The position numbers were made by a program, and so were the translations under genes. From the NCBI RefSeq assembly GCF_900046475.1, contig NZ_FCOU01000006.1, positions 1 to 64,000 of the forward strand: a stretch of DNA of 64,000 bases, read 5' to 3'. Positions 22,410-62,775 of this stretch are shown here, one piece after another; position 1 is the stretch's first letter; the number at the start of each line of letters is the position of its first letter. The notes beneath the pieces were generated by a model. That model ran no database searches. It was not told the origin of the DNA and worked only from the letters and a program-made list of their open reading frames with translations. This DNA is from Collinsella ihumii (GTDB lineage Bacteria; Actinomycetota; Coriobacteriia; Coriobacteriales; Coriobacteriaceae).

Positions 22410-22660
22410 TCGGCAAGGTTCCGCTGTTCGGTATCTGCCTCGGCCATCAGATGATCAGCCCCTATCGCCGCCCCGCGCTGTAGCCCTCCAAGTACGACCA
22501 CCGCCACAGCTGTTGAGGTCGGGCGGTGGCTGGGGGGTGCGCGGGGTGGTGCGGGTGGTGGGCATGGTCGAATGGACTGACTGCACGATGGTGTTCACCG
22601 TGTAGTAGATCGTGCGGATGTCTGTTATACACATCTGGATGTGGAGAAGAGGTGGGGAGA
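22389..22660. other. composite stretch with adapter-like sequence, probable assembly artefact
   Basis: It contains, in order: CTTATACAC (22391-22399), which matches the core of the Tn5 mosaic end; a 57-bp exact copy of carA at 22404-22460; a G-rich low-complexity stretch at about 22500-22565; a fragment resembling the antisense of ecfT at 22570-22619; and TGTCTGTTATACACATCT (22619-22636), which differs from the Tn5/Nextera mosaic end by one base. It carries no coherent coding sequence and interrupts the sortase gene. Confidence 0.75.
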
Positions 22661-23730
22661 AGACCCATGTGCACACTGCGATCGCCGCGCAGCAGACCGC
22701 GTCGCTTCCCGGTGAGGCGTTCGCCGGGCTGTCCGAGGAGTCGGCGCGCGCTGCCGCCCTTGAAAGCCTCGGCGCCCCGGTCGCCCCTTCGCAAAACGCG
22801 GCCGCTTCTGGCCCTCGGCCCGCCCCTGAGGCCCCGAGGCCCGCTTCGCGCCCGGCGACGCCTCGAGCGTCAAGGCCCGCCGCGCGCCCGGCGCCCTCTT
22901 CCGCACGCCAAGCCGCTTCCGCAAAAGATGAGCCGTCCCAGCATGCAGGAGCGACCGTGCGCCGCAAGCGCAGGGTTCCCGTGCTGGCGATCATCTTGAT
23001 CGCGATCGGCGTCGTGCTCCTGTTCGTTGCGGGCGGCCTGTTCCTTGCGACCCAGATGCGTTACCATCAGGCACAGGAATCCTACGAGGAGCTGGAGAGC
23101 TATACCGTCGAGTCCGACATGGGCGACGGCGTCCCGAGCGTCGATTTCGATGCGCTGTCGGCCATCAACTCCGACATCGTGGGATGGATCTACATCCCGG
23201 GCACTCCGGTCAACTATCCGGTCGTTCAGACCGACGACAACACCACGTACCTCAAGCAGCTGTTCGACGGCACCCCGAACGACTCGGGCGCGATTTTCAT
23301 GGACATGGCCAACACCCCTCCGGGGATGTACGATCAGCAGACCACGCTGTACGGCCACCATACCTACGACGGCACGATGTTCCAGGTCGTCGACAACTCG
23401 ACTGACCAGGCGGAGTTCGACAAGATCCAAACCGCCTACTACATCACCCGGAGCGCCACGTTCGTCATGACGCCGCTGCTCACCGCGCAGGTCGAGGACA
23501 CCTATATCCAGGCGCGCCAGCCGAACTTCCTGGGCGAGGGCGAGTCGCTCACCGCGTATCTCGAGGACATGCTCGCGCAGGCAAAGGCGCAGGCTCCCGA
23601 TGCCGCCGAGCGAATCGAGGACGCCGAGCAGGTCATGAGCCTCGTCACCTGCGCCGGCGAGATCATCCCGCGCACCACGCGCGCCGTGATGGTGCTTTCG
23701 GTTGACCAGATCGTCGCCCACGGCGTATAG
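22612..23730 (+). CDS. class B sortase, 5' end disrupted
   Basis: A 372-residue open frame whose first 20 residues come from the composite stretch. Native-looking text starts near 22670. An Ala/Pro-rich cytoplasmic region leads to one basic-flanked helix (RKRRVPVLAIILIAIGVVLL), then an extracellular sortase domain. Catalytic residues are visible: His in LYGHHTYDGTMFQ (near 249), Cys in SLVTCAG (near 345) and Arg in TTRAVMVLS. The GWIYIPGTPVNYPVVQ segment is typical of class B. Sortases attach proteins to the wall or assemble pili. No substrate with a sorting signal is encoded nearby. Confidence 0.85.
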   Translation: MRMSVIHIWMWRRGGEKTHVHTAIAAQQTASLPGEAFAGLSEESARAAALESLGAPVAPSQNAAASGPRPAPEAPRPASRPATPRASRPAARPAPSSARQAASAKDEPSQHAGATVRRKRRVPVLAIILIAIGVVLLFVAGGLFLATQMRYHQAQESYEELESYTVESDMGDGVPSVDFDALSAINSDIVGWIYIPGTPVNYPVVQTDDNTTYLKQLFDGTPNDSGAIFMDMANTPPGMYDQQTTLYGHHTYDGTMFQVVDNSTDQAEFDKIQTAYYITRSATFVMTPLLTAQVEDTYIQARQPNFLGEGESLTAYLEDMLAQAKAQAPDAAERIEDAEQVMSLVTCAGEIIPRTTRAVMVLSVDQIVAHGV

Positions 23731-23751: not shown

Positions 23752-24582
23752 TTATCGCGGCAGCGTGCTCTCATAGGCCCGCTTGAGCGCACGGAGGCGT
23801 TCGAGCTCGTCGGTCGCGCTGCCGTCCAGCTGCGCGGCAACCGCCACGACGAGGGCGTCCACCAGCGCGACGGCGCCCGCCATCGAATGGTACTCAAGCG
23901 GCTCCCCGCGATATGCGACAAGCTCGATGTCGGGCTCCGCCCCGGCTCCGTGCAGCGCGCGGCTCGTAAACAGGATGGACGTGGCCCCGACGGAGCGCGC
24001 CTGCTCGATGGCGATCCTGCTCTCCTCGGGCAGGCGCTGAAAGCCGAACGTCACGAGGACGCTGTCTTTGTCCATATGCACCAATCCCTCGAAGAGCTCA
24101 GAGCCGGCGGGCGGCACGACGACCACGCGCTTGGAGAAACGCGACAGGCGAAAACGGAGAAGCTCGGCGCAGCAGGACGCGGCGCCCTTGCCGTGAATCA
24201 GGACGAGCGAGGCGCCGGCGAGCGTGCGTGCCGCTTGCGTGAACGCCTCCTCGTCGATGCGCTCGGCCGTGATGCCCAGGTAGGACTGCTGGCGCTCCAA
24301 AAAGGCCCGAGGCGACGTCGGGCCGTCCTCGATGCTCGCGGCGATCTTCTCCGCCGGGCCGAGGGTGCTTGCCGCAACGGTCGCCTTGAGCTCCTTGAAA
24401 TCGCGAAACCCCGCATGGCGGGCGAAGCGCGAGACGGTGGCGTCCGATACGCCAAGGCGCGCTGCGAGCTGCTGGATCGGCATGACCAAAAACTCGGTCG
24501 GGTTGGACGTGATGAAGTCGATGATGGTGTGCTCCGCCTGCGTGTAGGCCACGCCCTGTTTGAACAGCGAAATCGGCATCAT
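23752..24582 (-). CDS. MurR/RpiR family transcriptional regulator
   Basis: A 276-residue protein with an N-terminal RpiR-type helix-turn-helix (QLAARLGVSDATVSRFARHA, about residues 40-60) and a C-terminal SIS domain (about 125-250) that in this family senses phosphosugars. The glycine/serine loop VLIHGKGAASCC is present. It is the last gene of the ECF cassette, 78 nt after the PHP gene, so it probably controls that operon in response to a phosphorylated sugar or similar ligand. That role is inferred from context. Confidence 0.88.
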   Translation of the reverse strand: MMPISLFKQGVAYTQAEHTIIDFITSNPTEFLVMPIQQLAARLGVSDATVSRFARHAGFRDFKELKATVAASTLGPAEKIAASIEDGPTSPRAFLERQQSYLGITAERIDEEAFTQAARTLAGASLVLIHGKGAASCCAELLRFRLSRFSKRVVVVPPAGSELFEGLVHMDKDSVLVTFGFQRLPEESRIAIEQARSVGATSILFTSRALHGAGAEPDIELVAYRGEPLEYHSMAGAVALVDALVVAVAAQLDGSATDELERLRALKRAYESTLPR

Positions 24583-24660
24583 GCGGGCACCCTCCTCGGG
24601 GTCGTGCGCGAATATCTACCACATGCGGTCGTGCCCGGCGGGCGCCGAAAGGCACAGTTC

Positions 24661-25458
24661 TCAGGCGGCAGGCCCTGCCAGGATGGTGTCGACATAGCTG
24701 CCGCCCAGCCGATCGATCTCCTTGAGCGCGCGTTTGAGCGTGGCCGCGGTGAGCACGCGGAATTCCAGGTCGTCGGCAAGCTCGATCTGGTATGCGCGCG
24801 CATTGACCATCTCGAACAGCTCGTCGTACGTCGTGCAGCAGCTGTCCATGCGCGTGGTGACGCATCCGTATTGGAACGCCTGGTGCGTATCGCTGCCCGA
24901 CACGACCGGGACATCGCCGATTCTCTGGGCAAACGCGTAGGTCTTCTCGACGGTGCGCGTGCGGTCGTGGCTGAGATCCTTGCCGTTGAGGTCCACGAAC
25001 TCGAACGCATGCAGCTGCTCGTCGGAAAGCTCGGGGATGTGCCCGGGCGTGCGAAACGGATGGCCTGCTCCAAAGTGCAGGTCGCGTCGCTTCACCTCGG
25101 CAGCGAGCTCGTCAAACGGAAGGAAGGAACCCTTCGCCTTGTGCGGCTCGAGCGCGAGGTTGAAGCTCAGGATATCCTCCATCGGCCCGAGCACCAGCGT
25201 GTGCCCGCCCTCTGCGATATCGACCTCCATGCCCGGGAACACGAGCAGGCCGTTGACATCGAACGCGTCGCCCTCGCGCGGGTAGCGCGACGAGATGTCG
25301 GCGTAAACCTGGCGAAAGCCCTGGGTGTTGAAGTGCTCGGTCAGACAGAGCGCATCAAGGCCGGCGCGTCGCGCGGCCCCGAACAGCCAGTCTGTGTAGG
25401 CGGGGGAAAACTCGAGGTATTTTGCAAGTTTCCCATGCGTGTGAAAATCGATGATCAC
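24661..25458 (-). CDS. PHP-domain metal-dependent hydrolase
   Basis: A 265-residue protein of the PHP (polymerase and histidinol phosphatase) superfamily. The first metal-binding motif is at the extreme N terminus (IIDFHTHGKL). Further ligands appear in LCLTEHFNT, FPGMEVDIAEGGHTLVLG, GAGHPFRTPGHIPE and the C-terminal VVSGSDTHQ. Such enzymes usually hydrolyse phosphate monoesters or diesters. It starts with GTG directly after the ecfT stop (TAAGTG), so the two are translationally linked. A plausible role is processing the imported substrate; the substrate is unknown. Confidence 0.85.
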   Translation of the reverse strand: MIIDFHTHGKLAKYLEFSPAYTDWLFGAARRAGLDALCLTEHFNTQGFRQVYADISSRYPREGDAFDVNGLLVFPGMEVDIAEGGHTLVLGPMEDILSFNLALEPHKAKGSFLPFDELAAEVKRRDLHFGAGHPFRTPGHIPELSDEQLHAFEFVDLNGKDLSHDRTRTVEKTYAFAQRIGDVPVVSGSDTHQAFQYGCVTTRMDSCCTTYDELFEMVNARAYQIELADDLEFRVLTAATLKRALKEIDRLGGSYVDTILAGPAA

Positions 25459-26295
25459 TTAGAGGACCTCCAGGATATGCGGGGCGGCGAAGCACAGGGC
25501 CGCCCATGCGACGCTGACGGCCGCGAAGAGCGCTTCGCGAGGACCGGCGTGCAGCGTCGAGAGCTTGATCTTGAGCACCTTCATGTTGGTCGAGGCGTAC
25601 CGGTATCCTTTAAGCTCGAGCGCCTCGACGGTGGTGCGCGAGCGTTTCGCGGTGTTGAGCATGAGCGGATAGAATGACTGCACGATGGTCTTCACCTGGT
25701 AGACGATCCAGCGGATCTTGCCCATGACGGTATCATGCTCCGGCGCGCGTCCGCGCATGCGGTAGGAAAGCAGGATGTTCTGCAGCTCTTCCATGAGGAT
25801 GGGCAGGATGCGGTAGGCGAAGCTGATGGAAAACGACAGGCGTTCCGGGCAGCCGAACCACAGCAGGCCGCATGAGAGCCTATCGGGGTCGAGCCCCGAG
25901 AACACCGTGATGCTCGCGAGCGAGACCGTGGCGACTTTGAGGGTCAGCACCAGCAGCGGGGCGAGCGTGGAGAGGTCGCCTCCGAACAGCAGCGAGGCGA
26001 CGAACATGTAGCCGGTTTGGGAGAAGACGCCGAGGGCGAACACGAACAGCACGAGCGGCGCCACGCGGGCCATGCGCGTGGTGATCGCGGTGAACGCAAA
26101 CATGCCCAAAAGGACGGCGACGTCGTTCAAGAACCATGGCACGAGGCCAAAGAACAGGTACCACAGCAACAGGACGCGTGGATCGAGCGCGGCGATGGGC
26201 GTGTCGTCGTTGCCGTAGGCATTCTTGAGCACCTGGTCGCGCAAAAAATCAATCGACACCTTGTCCATGACGTTTTCGGATATCTTCTCGATCAT
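25459..26295 (-). CDS. ecfT: ECF transporter transmembrane component EcfT
   Basis: A 278-residue membrane protein with five or six predicted helices. The cytoplasmic coupling helices include AYRILPILMEELQNILLSYRMRGR and SFYPLMLNTAKRSRTTVEALELKGY (read as two motifs), which contain the Ala-Arg-Gly-like signatures that contact the two ATPase domains. EcfT holds the S component and the ATPases together. The start is MIEKISEN at 26295, overlapping the stop of the ATPase gene (ATGA) and preceded by AAGGG; the frame is open further upstream, inside the ATPase gene. Confidence 0.9.
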   Translation of the reverse strand: MIEKISENVMDKVSIDFLRDQVLKNAYGNDDTPIAALDPRVLLLWYLFFGLVPWFLNDVAVLLGMFAFTAITTRMARVAPLVLFVFALGVFSQTGYMFVASLLFGGDLSTLAPLLVLTLKVATVSLASITVFSGLDPDRLSCGLLWFGCPERLSFSISFAYRILPILMEELQNILLSYRMRGRAPEHDTVMGKIRWIVYQVKTIVQSFYPLMLNTAKRSRTTVEALELKGYRYASTNMKVLKIKLSTLHAGPREALFAAVSVAWAALCFAAPHILEVL

Positions 26296-28088
26296 GCTGA
26301 ACCCTTCCCATCGTCTGTACCTGCGGCACCCGGTGCTCCGGGCGCCGCGCCGTCGGATGCGCTCGATCCGTTGCGCGCGCGCCATGCGGGAAAGCCGCTC
26401 AAGAAGTCATCGAGCGTGTAGCAGGCGGCGGTGCTGTCGAGCGCCTGTCCCATGGTAAAGATCTCCGGAGGCCTGATGCCCGATCGCTCCACGATGCCTG
26501 CGTCCATGAAGATCTCGTCCGGGGTGCCGTCGCCGATGATCTCTCCTTGGCACAGCACGATGATGCGGTCGGCAAACTGGCAGACGAGCTGCATGTCGTG
26601 CGTCGCGATCACCACGGTGTCGGTCACGCCGCGCAGGTCGGCGACGAGCCTGATGATCTCCTGCCGCGTGCCGATATCCAGATTCGCGGTCGGCTCGTCG
26701 AGCAGCAGCACGGGCGGATCGAGCGCGATGCCGATGGCGAGCGAGGCGCGACGCATCTGGCCGCCGGACATGAGTCGCCCGTCGCGGTCGGCCAGATCGC
26801 TGAGGCGGAAGCGCTCCAGGAGCTCGTCGGTGCGCTCGGCGGCATCCTTGACGCCGCGGGCGCGCATGGCGAACTCGATATCGGCGCGAATGGAGTCCTT
26901 GATGAACATCTGCTCGGGATTCTGGTAGACAAGCGAGAGCTGCTCGGAGAGCTCGTCGGGCCCCATGCCGCGCGTGGGCGTGCCGTCCAGGAGGATCTCT
27001 CCGGATTGCGGTTTGATGAGGCCGCACATGAGCTTCATGAGCGTGGACTTGCCTGCGCCGTTCGAACCCACGAGCGCCACCTTTTCCCCACGGCGGATGG
27101 TGAGGTCCAGGCCGTCGAAGACGCGGTGCGGCTCTCCTTTCACGCTGCGGTAGCTCACCGATACGTTCCTGAACTCGACTATCGGACGGTCTCGCATCGG
27201 CCGCGAGGGCTCGTCCGCCTTGCGCTTTGAGCGGGGAGAGGGCATGAAGGGGATGGTGGAGAAGGCGGCGAAACCCTCCTCGACCGTAGTCGGCAGCGGC
27301 GCGGCGGCGTGCAGGGCGCCCGCCTCCTTGAGCGCGCGTCCGGCGAGAGCGATCTGCGGAGGGTGCACGTCGCTCGCTTCGAGGTCCTCGATGCGCTGCA
27401 GGGCCTCATGGGCGGGCAGGTTCCATGAGATGGCGCCGTCATGCATGAGCGCCGCCGACGTGCAGTAGTCGGCGATGAAGTCGGTGTGGTGCTCGATGAC
27501 GATGATCGTCTTGCCATGATGCTCGTTGAGGTCGCGCAGAACCTCATAGGTCTGGCGGGCGTGATAGGGGTCGAGCTGCGCCACCGGCTCATCGAGGACG
27601 ATGACGTCGGGCTCGAGCGCGATGGCTCCGGCAAGGGCGAGCAGATGCTTCTGGCCGCCGGAGAGCTGCCAGATATAGGAGTCGGCGCGGTCGGCGAGGC
27701 CGCAGAGCTCGAGCGCCCTCATGCCGCGCTCCAGGTAATCGTCGAACGCATAGTTCAGGCATGCGAACGACGCCTCATCGATGACGGTGGGGCGGACAAG
27801 CTGGTTCTCGAAATCCTGATAGACGTATCCGATGCGCTGCGCCAGATCCCCGATGTGAGATCGGGCCGCATCGACGCCGCACACGGTGATAGAGCCGCTG
27901 AGGTCGCCGACGATGAATTGCGGGATCAGCCCGTTCATGGTTTTGCACAACGTGGACTTTCCGCAGCCGTTCGCGCCCATGATGGCGAGAAAGTCGCCCT
28001 CCGGCACGTCCAGGTCGACGTGCCGGAGGGTCGGGGCTGCTGCTCCGGGATACGTAAAGCTGACGTCGTGCAGGGCTACAGCAGACAC
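26292..28088 (-). CDS. fused double ATPase of an ECF transporter (EcfA-EcfA')
   Basis: A 598-residue protein with two complete ABC ATPase domains in one chain. Domain 1 has Walker A GANGCGKST (about 38-46), signature LSGGQKHLLALAGAIA and Walker B VIVLDEPVAQLD. Domain 2 has Walker A GSNGAGKST (about 342), MSGGQMRRASLAIGIA and VLLLDEPTANLD. They are joined by a linker of roughly 60 residues. ECF importers normally use two separate ATPases; fused versions are known. The C-terminal 40 residues are Ala/Gly-rich and unlike ATPase. It lies 12 nt after the S-component gene and overlaps ecfT by 4 nt. Confidence 0.93.
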   Translation of the reverse strand: MSAVALHDVSFTYPGAAAPTLRHVDLDVPEGDFLAIMGANGCGKSTLCKTMNGLIPQFIVGDLSGSITVCGVDAARSHIGDLAQRIGYVYQDFENQLVRPTVIDEASFACLNYAFDDYLERGMRALELCGLADRADSYIWQLSGGQKHLLALAGAIALEPDVIVLDEPVAQLDPYHARQTYEVLRDLNEHHGKTIIVIEHHTDFIADYCTSAALMHDGAISWNLPAHEALQRIEDLEASDVHPPQIALAGRALKEAGALHAAAPLPTTVEEGFAAFSTIPFMPSPRSKRKADEPSRPMRDRPIVEFRNVSVSYRSVKGEPHRVFDGLDLTIRRGEKVALVGSNGAGKSTLMKLMCGLIKPQSGEILLDGTPTRGMGPDELSEQLSLVYQNPEQMFIKDSIRADIEFAMRARGVKDAAERTDELLERFRLSDLADRDGRLMSGGQMRRASLAIGIALDPPVLLLDEPTANLDIGTRQEIIRLVADLRGVTDTVVIATHDMQLVCQFADRIIVLCQGEIIGDGTPDEIFMDAGIVERSGIRPPEIFTMGQALDSTAACYTLDDFLSGFPAWRARNGSSASDGAAPGAPGAAGTDDGKGSA

Positions 28089-28100
28089 GGGGCGCCCGCC

Positions 28101-28943
28101 TTACGCGTTTTTGAGCTGGGCGCTGCGACGTGCCCAGAAGCCGATGATAAGGGCTGCGACGGCGGCGACGGCGATGCCGGCCAGGACAGCGGTCTGGCTT
28201 TCCGCCCAATCCGCCTCCCACTCGATGATCGACATGCCGGCCTTGGAGATGCAGGCGGCTGCGATGGCGACGGCGAAGCCGACGACCGACCAGGCGACAA
28301 CGCGTCCGCTCAGGGCAGGCGCGGCATCATCGGTCGCCGTGCGGGGCTTGCAGCCCAGCAGCGGCTCGATCTTGCCGTACAGGCGCGGGACCAAAAAGAT
28401 GGTGGGCAGCAGGCAGAACAGGATGCCCGAGAAGCACAGGTCGTTCAGAAACGAGAAGCCCTCGGTGGCAAAGACGGACTCCGGAAGGCCCGGGATCGCC
28501 TCGAAGTCGTCGACGGCGACCTGGACCTTGACGATGTCGACCACTGCGCTCATGGCGAGCTGGATGGCCGGTCCGCTGATGGCGGCAAGGGCGACCTGCT
28601 TGATGTTTTTGGGGTCGCGCACCATAAGGCCCGCGAGGTAGACGGCGATGGTGACGGTCAGGAACTTCTCGAGCTCTCCGAGTCCGCCGAACTGGCCGAG
28701 CATGATCTCGGAGAACACCAGCTCGCCCGTCGCGGCGCCAAGCGCGGCCGACAGCGGGTCGAAGAGCATGGCGAGCGTCAGCGGGATGAACAGGAAGAAC
28801 TCGACCGACAGCTCGACGATGCCGATCTGGACCGACGGAATCAGCTCGGAGATGAGCGTCGCCAGGCCGTACAGCGACATGGATAGGACGAAGACCATGA
28901 GCTTTTGCGACCCCGTGGCGCCGCGCTCTGCATAGGTAGACAT
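28101..28943 (-). CDS. putative substrate-binding (S) component of the ECF transporter
   Basis: A 280-residue hydrophobic protein with about seven or eight predicted helices. The first two thirds resemble an S component: a TLISELIPSVQIGIVELSVE-type start, then LTLAMLFDPLSAALGAATGE and a conserved acidic/gly pattern. Two further helices follow near the C terminus (VVAWSVVGFAVAIAAACI and AVLAGIAVAAVAALIIGFWA), making it longer than the usual 180-200 residues. I cannot match it to a vitamin- or metal-specific S family, so the ligand is unknown. It is the first gene of the operon, with the cassette promoter presumably in the divergent gap to 29221. Confidence 0.8.
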   Translation of the reverse strand: MSTYAERGATGSQKLMVFVLSMSLYGLATLISELIPSVQIGIVELSVEFFLFIPLTLAMLFDPLSAALGAATGELVFSEIMLGQFGGLGELEKFLTVTIAVYLAGLMVRDPKNIKQVALAAISGPAIQLAMSAVVDIVKVQVAVDDFEAIPGLPESVFATEGFSFLNDLCFSGILFCLLPTIFLVPRLYGKIEPLLGCKPRTATDDAAPALSGRVVAWSVVGFAVAIAAACISKAGMSIIEWEADWAESQTAVLAGIAVAAVAALIIGFWARRSAQLKNA

Positions 28944-29220
28944 GATCGATTCCCCTCTTTCGTGGTGGCAATGGTGCCGGCACTGTCAAAGATAGGGGTT
29001 CTACCTGCTTATATCGTTAAGCGGTCCGTAAAATGAAAATAAGCTTTCGCGGGCCTCTCCTATGAAAATTATTACGGCGCGGCCGATGTGCGCACGGCGG
29101 TTCGTGGACGCTTTCGTGCAAATCGCCCGTTTGCGCTCCTTACGAATCGTTTACACACGGGCTCCCGTGGGAACAAAGGAGGGCAGAAACGTTTTCCGCG
29201 ACGATGTGAGGAGAGCTCCC
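28944..29220. promoter_or_regulatory. divergent intergenic region between the ECF operon and the MoaE-like gene
   Basis: A 277-nt gap between genes transcribed away from each other, with an AT-richer core at about 28990-29070. GATATAAG on the minus strand (complement of 29010-29017) is a possible -10 for the ECF operon. I see no known riboswitch. TGTGAGGAGAG precedes the plus-strand start at 29221. Confidence 0.4.
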
Positions 29221-29628
29221 ATGGCGCACCAGATGCCTTCGATCGATACATGGCTTGCCGAGGCGAAAAACGACCCGAGCTTCCGCTCCTGCGGCATGTA
29301 CCTCATCCATAACGGCACGGTTCGCGAAACGCCCAAGGCGCAGGTGCGCGCGTGCGAGACGGACGGCGTCGAGGTCGGGCGCAAGGTCGGCGGCATGACG
29401 TTTTCCTACGATCGCGACAAGGTCGAGGCGGCGCTTGCCGCGGCGCGCGAGATGCCGGGTATCGGCTATGTGCGCGCCTGGCTGAACGAGGGCGAGCTTT
29501 CCGTTGGCGACGACATCATGCTCGTGCTCATCGGAGGCGATATCCGCCCCCGCGTCATCGACGCGCTGCAGGCGCTCGTGGGAACCCTCAAAAACGAGTG
29601 CGTCACGGAGATCGAGCGACCCGCTTAA
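29221..29628 (+). CDS. MoaE-like protein (molybdopterin synthase large-subunit family)
   Basis: A 135-residue protein. The central part (VGGMTFSYDRDKVEAALAAA, then GIGYVRAWLNEGELSVGDDI and MLVLIGGDIRPRVIDALQAL) follows the MoaE fold, in which the GELxxGDxxVxVxV segment is conserved. Authentic MoaE ends with a Lys-rich catalytic stretch (KxxxPxWKKE). Here the corresponding end reads GTLKNECVTEIERPA and lacks it. No moaD or other molybdenum cofactor gene is in the window. It may have lost or changed function. The ATG at 29221 follows GAGGAGAG. Confidence 0.65.
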   Translation: MAHQMPSIDTWLAEAKNDPSFRSCGMYLIHNGTVRETPKAQVRACETDGVEVGRKVGGMTFSYDRDKVEAALAAAREMPGIGYVRAWLNEGELSVGDDIMLVLIGGDIRPRVIDALQALVGTLKNECVTEIERPA

Positions 29629-56893: not shown

Positions 56894-58402
<1,509 letters not shown>

Positions 58403-58771
58403 CTAGGGAGAGACAGCTTCCATGGGAAGAGACGAAGTGAATATCTCACAATTGCTACGGCCAGGTGTGCCCGCTCGGCCTTCCCCGGTTTCCCCGCAGC
58501 GTCCGGTCCCCGGGGTCGCCCCGCGTACCTTGAGAGCCGCATAGCGAGCCCGGACGCCGACACGGCGTCCGGCGAGAGCGAAATACGATTCGATAGCGAT
58601 ATTGACAGAGTGAAGAACGGATATCGATTCTGCGAAAGGTAAAAGGATTGAGAGAAAAGATCCTTATATATGGGTAGTAGCAATGAGCATCTGGTCGCCG
58701 GGGCGGATACCGCCCCGGCCGGTATGTTCGCGCCGCCCCGGGGGACGCCCCCGGGGCGCGGATATCAGACG
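58403..58771 (+). other. 16S-23S internal transcribed spacer, no tRNA
   Basis: A 370-nt spacer without any tRNA-like cloverleaf. It contains ACCTTGAGAGCCGCATAG near 58530 and the AT-rich 58560-58680. A GC-rich hairpin (GCCCCGGGG-type arms) lies near 58730, before 23S. Confidence 0.8.
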
Positions 58772-61747
<2,976 letters not shown>

Positions 61748-61847
61748 ACACATCACTCCGACCGCATCGGACCGCGGACGCTCCCGAGACTCGCTGTGCG
61801 GCCCTCAGGGGCACGCGGGCGCCCCCGGGGCGGAGCGCCGCCCACCG

Positions 61848-62775
<928 letters not shown>

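Follow-up and report, generated by a model that had tools for sequence, protein, structure and literature searches.

Energy-coupling factor (ECF) importers are known for the uptake of vitamins and trace metals, and in the dedicated, or group I, transporters such as CbiMNQO and BioMNY the S component, the A and A' ATPases and the T component are encoded in one operon. A five-gene locus of related composition lies at positions 23752-28943 of a 64,000-nucleotide (nt) stretch of Collinsella ihumii DNA (contig NZ_FCOU01000006.1, positions 1 to 64,000; hereafter the window), which belongs to contig 6 of a genome of 2.8 Mb. It shares with the group I transporters the common operon for S, A/A' and T, the S fold, an EcfT/CbiQ-type T component and an ATPase of the ECF_ATPase family, but differs from them in an S component that falls outside the named families and carries a C-terminal extension, and in its tie to a PHP-fold metalloenzyme, to a MurR/RpiR-type regulator and, in Bacillales, to a Pho-type promoter. 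The reading which we favour, with a probability of roughly 0.62, is that the five genes specify a dedicated ECF importer of group I with a small organophosphorus compound, either a phosphonate or a phosphate ester, as its substrate, as well as an enzyme that processes this compound inside the cell and a regulator of their own.

The other components also have described relatives. The regulator has the HTH_6 plus SIS architecture and the palindromic operator of MurR/RpiR proteins but differs from them in the absence of the SxSG phosphosugar loop and in a subfamily motif, RGExxE[YF]HSM. The closest solved relative of the PHP protein, PsfC of pseudomonad fosfomycin biosynthesis (PDB 7rty), has the motifs SKK, TEH, PGxE, KDL and GSDxH in common with it; PsfC, however, is a biosynthetic di-iron enzyme from a phosphonate antibiotic cluster, whereas the PHP gene here stands with an importer and occurs in both anaerobes and aerobes. 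With the PhnCDE importers and carbon-phosphorus (C-P) lyase systems the locus would have phosphorus scavenging in common, and in one genome (G756) such systems adjoin the ECF block. An importer distantly related to the 2-aminoethylphosphonate-type ATP-binding cassette (ABC) importers (PhnU2/PhnT2 models) accompanies the same PHP and RpiR subfamilies in two further genomes (G362 and G585); unlike the present locus, it is of the conventional binding-protein-dependent kind and has no ECF components. Among openly licensed papers, a scope which makes for weak evidence, no report was found that ties ECF transporters to PHP proteins, the Pho regulon, phosphonates or organophosphates.

Gene content and conservation of the locus

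The five genes all lie on the minus strand and are packed as tightly as the initial annotation had described. The gene for the S component (28101-28943, 280 residues) is followed after 12 nt by that for a fused ECF ATPase A-A' (26292-28088, 598 residues, GTG start, two ABC_tran domains), which overlaps by 4 nt the gene for the T component of the EcfT/CbiQ family (25459-26295, 278 residues). The gene for the PHP-fold metalloenzyme (24661-25458, 265 residues, GTG start) adjoins that for T with a 0-nt gap, and the gene for the MurR/RpiR-type regulator (23752-24582, 276 residues) lies 78 nt beyond it. The A-A' protein scored 357.7 bits against TIGR04520 (ECF ATPase; cut-off 315), matched in two stretches within the one protein, and the T component scored 43.9 bits against CbiQ (Pfam PF02361; cut-off 25), so that both are placed in their families by the curated models.

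Scanning a species-representative genome collection with the PHP protein gave 48 loci, from Collinsella and its relatives, Lachnospiraceae and Bacillales. Nearly all of these loci, whether from Coriobacteriia, Lachnospiraceae or Bacillales, had the gene order S-AA'-T-PHP, and an RpiR homologue was present in 42 of the 48, a count which rests on automatic gene calls and is an undercount in GC-rich loci. The RpiR genes that accompany the block belong to one subfamily, and their placement varies: in Collinsella they are downstream and co-directional, in Lachnospiraceae downstream but in convergent orientation, and in Bacillales upstream in divergent orientation. As the association persists in three orientations, the regulator is probably linked to the block functionally and not passively carried; and because S, A-A', T and PHP stay together in unrelated orders of bacteria, the five-gene arrangement is not a product of chance.

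Co-occurrence points the same way. In Coriobacteriia, S and PHP were found together in 13/13 S-bearing genomes (296 searched; Fisher p 8.5e-22), and in Bacilli in 17/18 (348 searched; Fisher p 6.7e-25), both values being uncorrected for phylogeny; where they co-occur the two genes are about 3.5 kb apart. The distribution of S is patchy, at 13/296 Coriobacteriia, 18/348 Bacilli and 2/245 genomes in the class of a lachnospiraceous member. The proposal of a dedicated ECF importer functionally tied to a PHP protein and an RpiR regulator is thus supported by both the conserved block and the co-occurrence, and both the PHP and the RpiR genes, the absence of which from related loci would have told against it, are present there. 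Beyond the five genes, the survey of the 48 neighbourhoods revealed no family that is a recurrent member of the block in different genera. Nucleoside import, considered on account of the carB, purE and purF-like neighbours in the window, was dropped because these neighbours do not recur in the other loci. One locus (L171, 4711-8333, in genome G115) has T, PHP and RpiR intact, no match to S and an A-A' gene matched over its second part only, and is apparently a deletion.

The S component and the PHP enzyme

The initial annotation could not assign a substrate from the known S families, and this held for the homologues as well: none of 33 gave a credible Pfam or NCBIfam match, S could be placed in no vitamin or metal family, and a sequence search of solved structures with an S profile returned no match up to E 10. 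The evidence for an S component is structural. In an alignment with solved structures (VIA-align) of the AlphaFold model (mean predicted local distance difference test score, pLDDT, 75) the first 17 rows were all ECF S components, at Z 9.4 to 13.0, a range which needs caution for helical bundles, and the next row dropped to 6.6; no competing fold was found. Foldseek alone was weak, with a best E of 0.077, likewise to an ECF S component. The match spans residues 2-205, and the last 70 residues form two extra helices outside it. The modelled protein therefore appears to be an ECF S component with the six-helix S fold and a C-terminal extension of about 70 residues past that core. Its invariant residues on the presumed outer face are mostly acidic (Glu33, Glu44, Glu90, Glu92, Asp136 and Glu161, with one Lys139). 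A lone divergent S homologue (L166, 5699-6580, genome G405) has no A-A', T, PHP or RpiR gene nearby, and its adjoining genes look like an amino-acid-type ABC importer; this homologue may use a shared ECF module.

The PHP protein falls under the Pfam PHP cut-off (20.7 vs 26.4 bits). Its metal motifs are nevertheless complete and invariant (H6, H8, T40-E41-H42, E78, H133, D190 and H192), and its model has the PHP fold with a pLDDT of 96.7, so that fold and motifs together place it within the PHP superfamily. Outside the metal motifs Lys10, Lys13 and Arg136 are invariant and Lys160 nearly so, a set that would suit an anionic group. The closest solved structure is PsfC (Z 27.2, root-mean-square deviation 2.1 over 228 residues, 21% identity), followed by endonuclease Q (EndoQ) at Z 20.9. 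PsfC is a dinuclear non-heme iron enzyme which converts 2-phosphonomethylmalate to 3-oxo-4-phosphonobutanoate (PMC12871164). With a di-iron enzyme that acts on a phosphonate as its nearest solved relative, the PHP protein of the locus cannot securely be labelled a hydrolase or phosphatase. An identity with the PHP proteins of Coriobacteriia C-P lyase regions (PhnPP-like) was rejected: in a profile search of four such regions the best score was 14 bits (E 4.8e-4), and those proteins form a separate branch with a TDH or TNH motif in place of the TEH found here. A PHP relative is also present in a Halalkalibacter locus (L054, 6998-11017), beside a sugar-type ABC importer, an SGSH-like sulfatase and a GH43 enzyme, in a genome without an S gene.

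The regulator and its predicted operator

Both the HTH_6 (50.7 bits) and SIS (32.8 bits) domains of the regulator score above their cut-offs, which places it among the MurR/RpiR proteins. The second SIS motif, SxSG, is replaced by FGF, an FGF-like sequence or an SFT-type sequence in all members aligned, including those beside other transporters; the corresponding residues of a solved RpiR relative are SQSG. The protein of the window belongs to a subfamily with FGF at this place and a conserved RGExxE[YF]HSM-type motif, and its first glycine motif reads GKGAA. Since the canonical SIS phosphosugar loop is missing, sensing of a phosphosugar by these regulators is not supported by their sequences. 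The initial annotation had envisaged a phosphorylated or sugar-containing nutrient that is hydrolysed inside the cell, with its substrate or product form sensed by the regulator; of this, a substrate containing phosphorus gained support from the Bacillales promoters and the C-P lyase neighbourhood described below, and the phosphosugar-sensing part did not.

A model of the palindrome, built from the regions that precede S in Bacillales (consensus TGTAAAAATTTTTACA), found strong sites upstream of S elsewhere, at 15.1 to 16.9 bits in Lachnospiraceae, 15.0 in a Collinsella relative (L026), 16.0 in G756 and 13.2 in G223. In the window the predicted RpiR operator is CGAAAGCTTATTTTCA (29034-29049; family consensus TGWAAWWWWWWTTWCA), approximately 100 nt upstream of S. 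No other site on the two strands of the 64-kb window exceeds 6 bits, and the best of 269 control stretches reaches 2.7. The Collinsella form of the site occurred in exactly one copy in 9/10 Coriobacteriia genomes searched, and the coordinates of all nine single-copy sites place them upstream of S, at a distance of about 90 to 220 nt; the site at 29034-29049 was the only one found in the genome of the window. The reversed control pattern had zero occurrences in the Coriobacteriia genomes searched. A site which is unique per genome and stands upstream of S suggests a regulator that is probably local. A possible second, degenerate half-site, TATGAAAATTATTACG (29061-29076, 27 nt from the first), scores a weak -0.1 bits and is suggested only by the paired sites seen in Bacillales.

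Pho-type promoters and phosphorus-related neighbours

A first argument for phosphorus comes from the promoters of the Bacillales members, and it is these, not the window, which the claim of Pho control covers. PHO boxes in Bacillus subtilis, among others, are 11-nt direct repeats (PMC4415409). Between the operators and S, the Bacillales loci have TTAACA-like hexamers at -15 and -37 from a -10 hexamer that has no -35, a layout identical to that of the pstS promoters in the same genomes. With a model trained solely on 30 separate pstS promoters of the class, and 190 upstream regions from the same loci as controls, 27/30 Bacillales S promoters scored above the 95th percentile of the controls. In many loci the -48 hexamer of this model shares bases with the RpiR operator, and the test was repeated without this hexamer: 25/30 loci and all 11 genus representatives remained above the same percentile (genus set, p 3.5e-8). 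When the spacing was varied by single bases the excess peaked exactly at -15 and -37. The S promoters of G756 and G223 scored 30.3 and 18.6 bits, respectively. The Bacillales operon is therefore probably a member of the Pho regulon, as far as promoter sequence can tell. The operon of the window scored -5.3 bits (p 0.19) under this model, which was derived from Bacilli and may be a poor fit for a GC-rich coriobacterium; Collinsella has a clear RpiR operator, but Pho-type control is not demonstrated there.

The gene neighbourhood of G756 is consistent with a link to phosphorus. Here the series of a divergent RpiR gene, S, A-A', T and PHP is continued by PhnD, PhnC, PhnE and PhnE, all above NCBIfam cut-offs, and further on by PhnH, also above its cut-off, PhnK- and PhnL-like ATPases below theirs, a PhnM-type diphosphatase, a phosphonate-metabolism hexapeptide transferase and a PhnF-like regulator; two more proteins read as PhnI and PhnJ by sequence and are without an NCBIfam match. 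In both G362 and G585 the ABC importer mentioned above precedes PHP and RpiR; its fused permease is best matched by PhnU2 and its ATPase by UgpC, PotA and PhnT2, though none of these matches reaches the curated cut-off. In G223 PHP and RpiR are separated by an inositol-monophosphatase-like gene. The genome of the window contains PhnJ. The structural closeness of the PHP protein to PsfC, which has a phosphonate as its substrate, is a third pointer to phosphorus.

Proposed function and significance

By analogy with ECF transporters generally, the S component would capture the compound outside the cell, and the A-A' ATPase and T component would drive its release inside, where the PHP metalloenzyme may then cleave it and free usable phosphorus. 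The RpiR-type protein is predicted, from the conservation of the operator, to bind the palindromes upstream of S and so to gate the operon, probably as a repressor for which the imported compound, or the product made from it, would act as the inducer; this ligand would presumably not be a phosphosugar held by a canonical SIS loop. In Bacillales the PhoP-type direct repeats, in their pstS-like placement, would in addition switch the operon on at phosphate shortage. A more specific version is put forward tentatively, at somewhat less than even odds: that the phosphonate or phosphate ester serves as a phosphorus source, that the PHP protein has a new activity which releases phosphate without C-P lyase, and that the SIS regulator senses an organophosphorus compound instead of a phosphosugar. 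With low confidence, the preferred substrate could be zwitterionic, for example an aminophosphonate, choline phosphate or ethanolamine phosphate, as the mostly acidic invariant residues on the outer face of S would favour a positive charge.

If the organophosphorus proposal is correct, the ECF class would be extended to phosphorus nutrition by way of a dedicated system under phosphate-starvation control, and a function would be given to one unassigned S family and one unassigned PHP family. There would also be an organophosphorus nutrient common to gut anaerobes and soil Bacillales, and a concrete example of an RpiR subfamily with a ligand which is probably not a phosphosugar.

Alternative explanations

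Several observations weigh against the organophosphorus proposal. The 11-bp repeats of Lachnospiraceae do not line up with a convincing -10, the Pho-type scores of Collinsella are not significant (p 0.12 to 0.22), and Pho control can also cover genes which do not feed on organic phosphorus. The C-P lyase link comes from one genome, G756, and three S-bearing Collinsella genomes (G021, G016 and G008) are without PhnJ, from which it follows that the ECF system does not require C-P lyase. The acidic outer face of S, moreover, suits a cationic or zwitterionic ligand better than bare phosphate. This last point would also fit salvage of a vitamin or cofactor, as a precursor or in a phosphorylated form, in which S binds a vitamin-like molecule, the PHP protein acts on the vitamin or its phosphorylated form, and the Pho control of Bacillales is a side issue. 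Characterised S components are mostly vitamin binders, and the S model aligns best with the folate, thiamin, riboflavin and pantothenate components, though this reflects the common fold. We consider such a role unlikely: riboswitches, which might have given a clue to the substrate, were absent from the window, and none of relevance, including any for vitamins near the operon, was found in 20 related loci; vitamin genes do not recur in the neighbourhood, S is outside the named families, and the pstS-like promoters and the C-P lyase junction would be left unexplained. Those promoters might themselves be misread, the TTAACA-like hexamers being ordinary sigma-A -35/-10 elements and the operon unlinked to phosphate, and in some Paenibacillus loci (L050) the sequence TTGACA-N17-TAATAC can indeed be read as a sigma-A promoter. 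Many genera, however, have TTAACA, TTTACA or CTGACA at -15, which is unlike a -10, and the -10 without a -35 stands at a fixed 9 nt after the hexamer; with the base-exact peaks and a model trained on pstS promoters only, this makes the sigma-A interpretation improbable.

A phosphosugar system, with an importer for a phosphorylated sugar or sugar conjugate, a PHP protein that dephosphorylates it and a regulator that senses it through SIS, would be compatible with the Pho evidence in so far as its substrate contains phosphorus. RpiR proteins with SIS domains are often phosphosugar sensors, the regulator clears both domain cut-offs, and in the distant Halalkalibacter locus a PHP relative is paired with sugar-type genes. 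The genome of that locus is, however, without an S component, no further gene family recurs across genera in the block, and in every member read the SxSG loop is replaced, with GKGAA as the first motif in the window; the phosphosugar system is likewise held to be improbable. The PHP protein could instead be a PsfC-like di-iron redox enzyme, and not a hydrolase, which converts an imported phosphonate, given that PsfC is by far the closest structure and has the SKK and KDL motifs in common with it in addition to the PHP metal motifs. The identity to PsfC is just 21%, however, and the second-closest structure is an endonuclease. Collinsella and Lachnospiraceae are anaerobes, which makes an oxygen-dependent reaction unlikely in these hosts, and a redox role of this kind is accorded only a slight chance.

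Other features of the window

A complete 16S-23S-5S rRNA operon is located at 56895-61966, and ARAGORN reported zero tRNA genes in it or in the rest of the 64-kb window. Divergently from S, a gene for a MoaE-like protein of 135 residues (29221-29628; PF02391, 30.2 bits vs 23.4) has its start in the same intergenic region, which contains the RpiR operator. On the other side of the locus a gene for a sortase-domain protein (22612-23730; PF04203, 38 bits vs 26.6) lies on the opposite strand, its end approximately 20 nt away from that of the RpiR gene.

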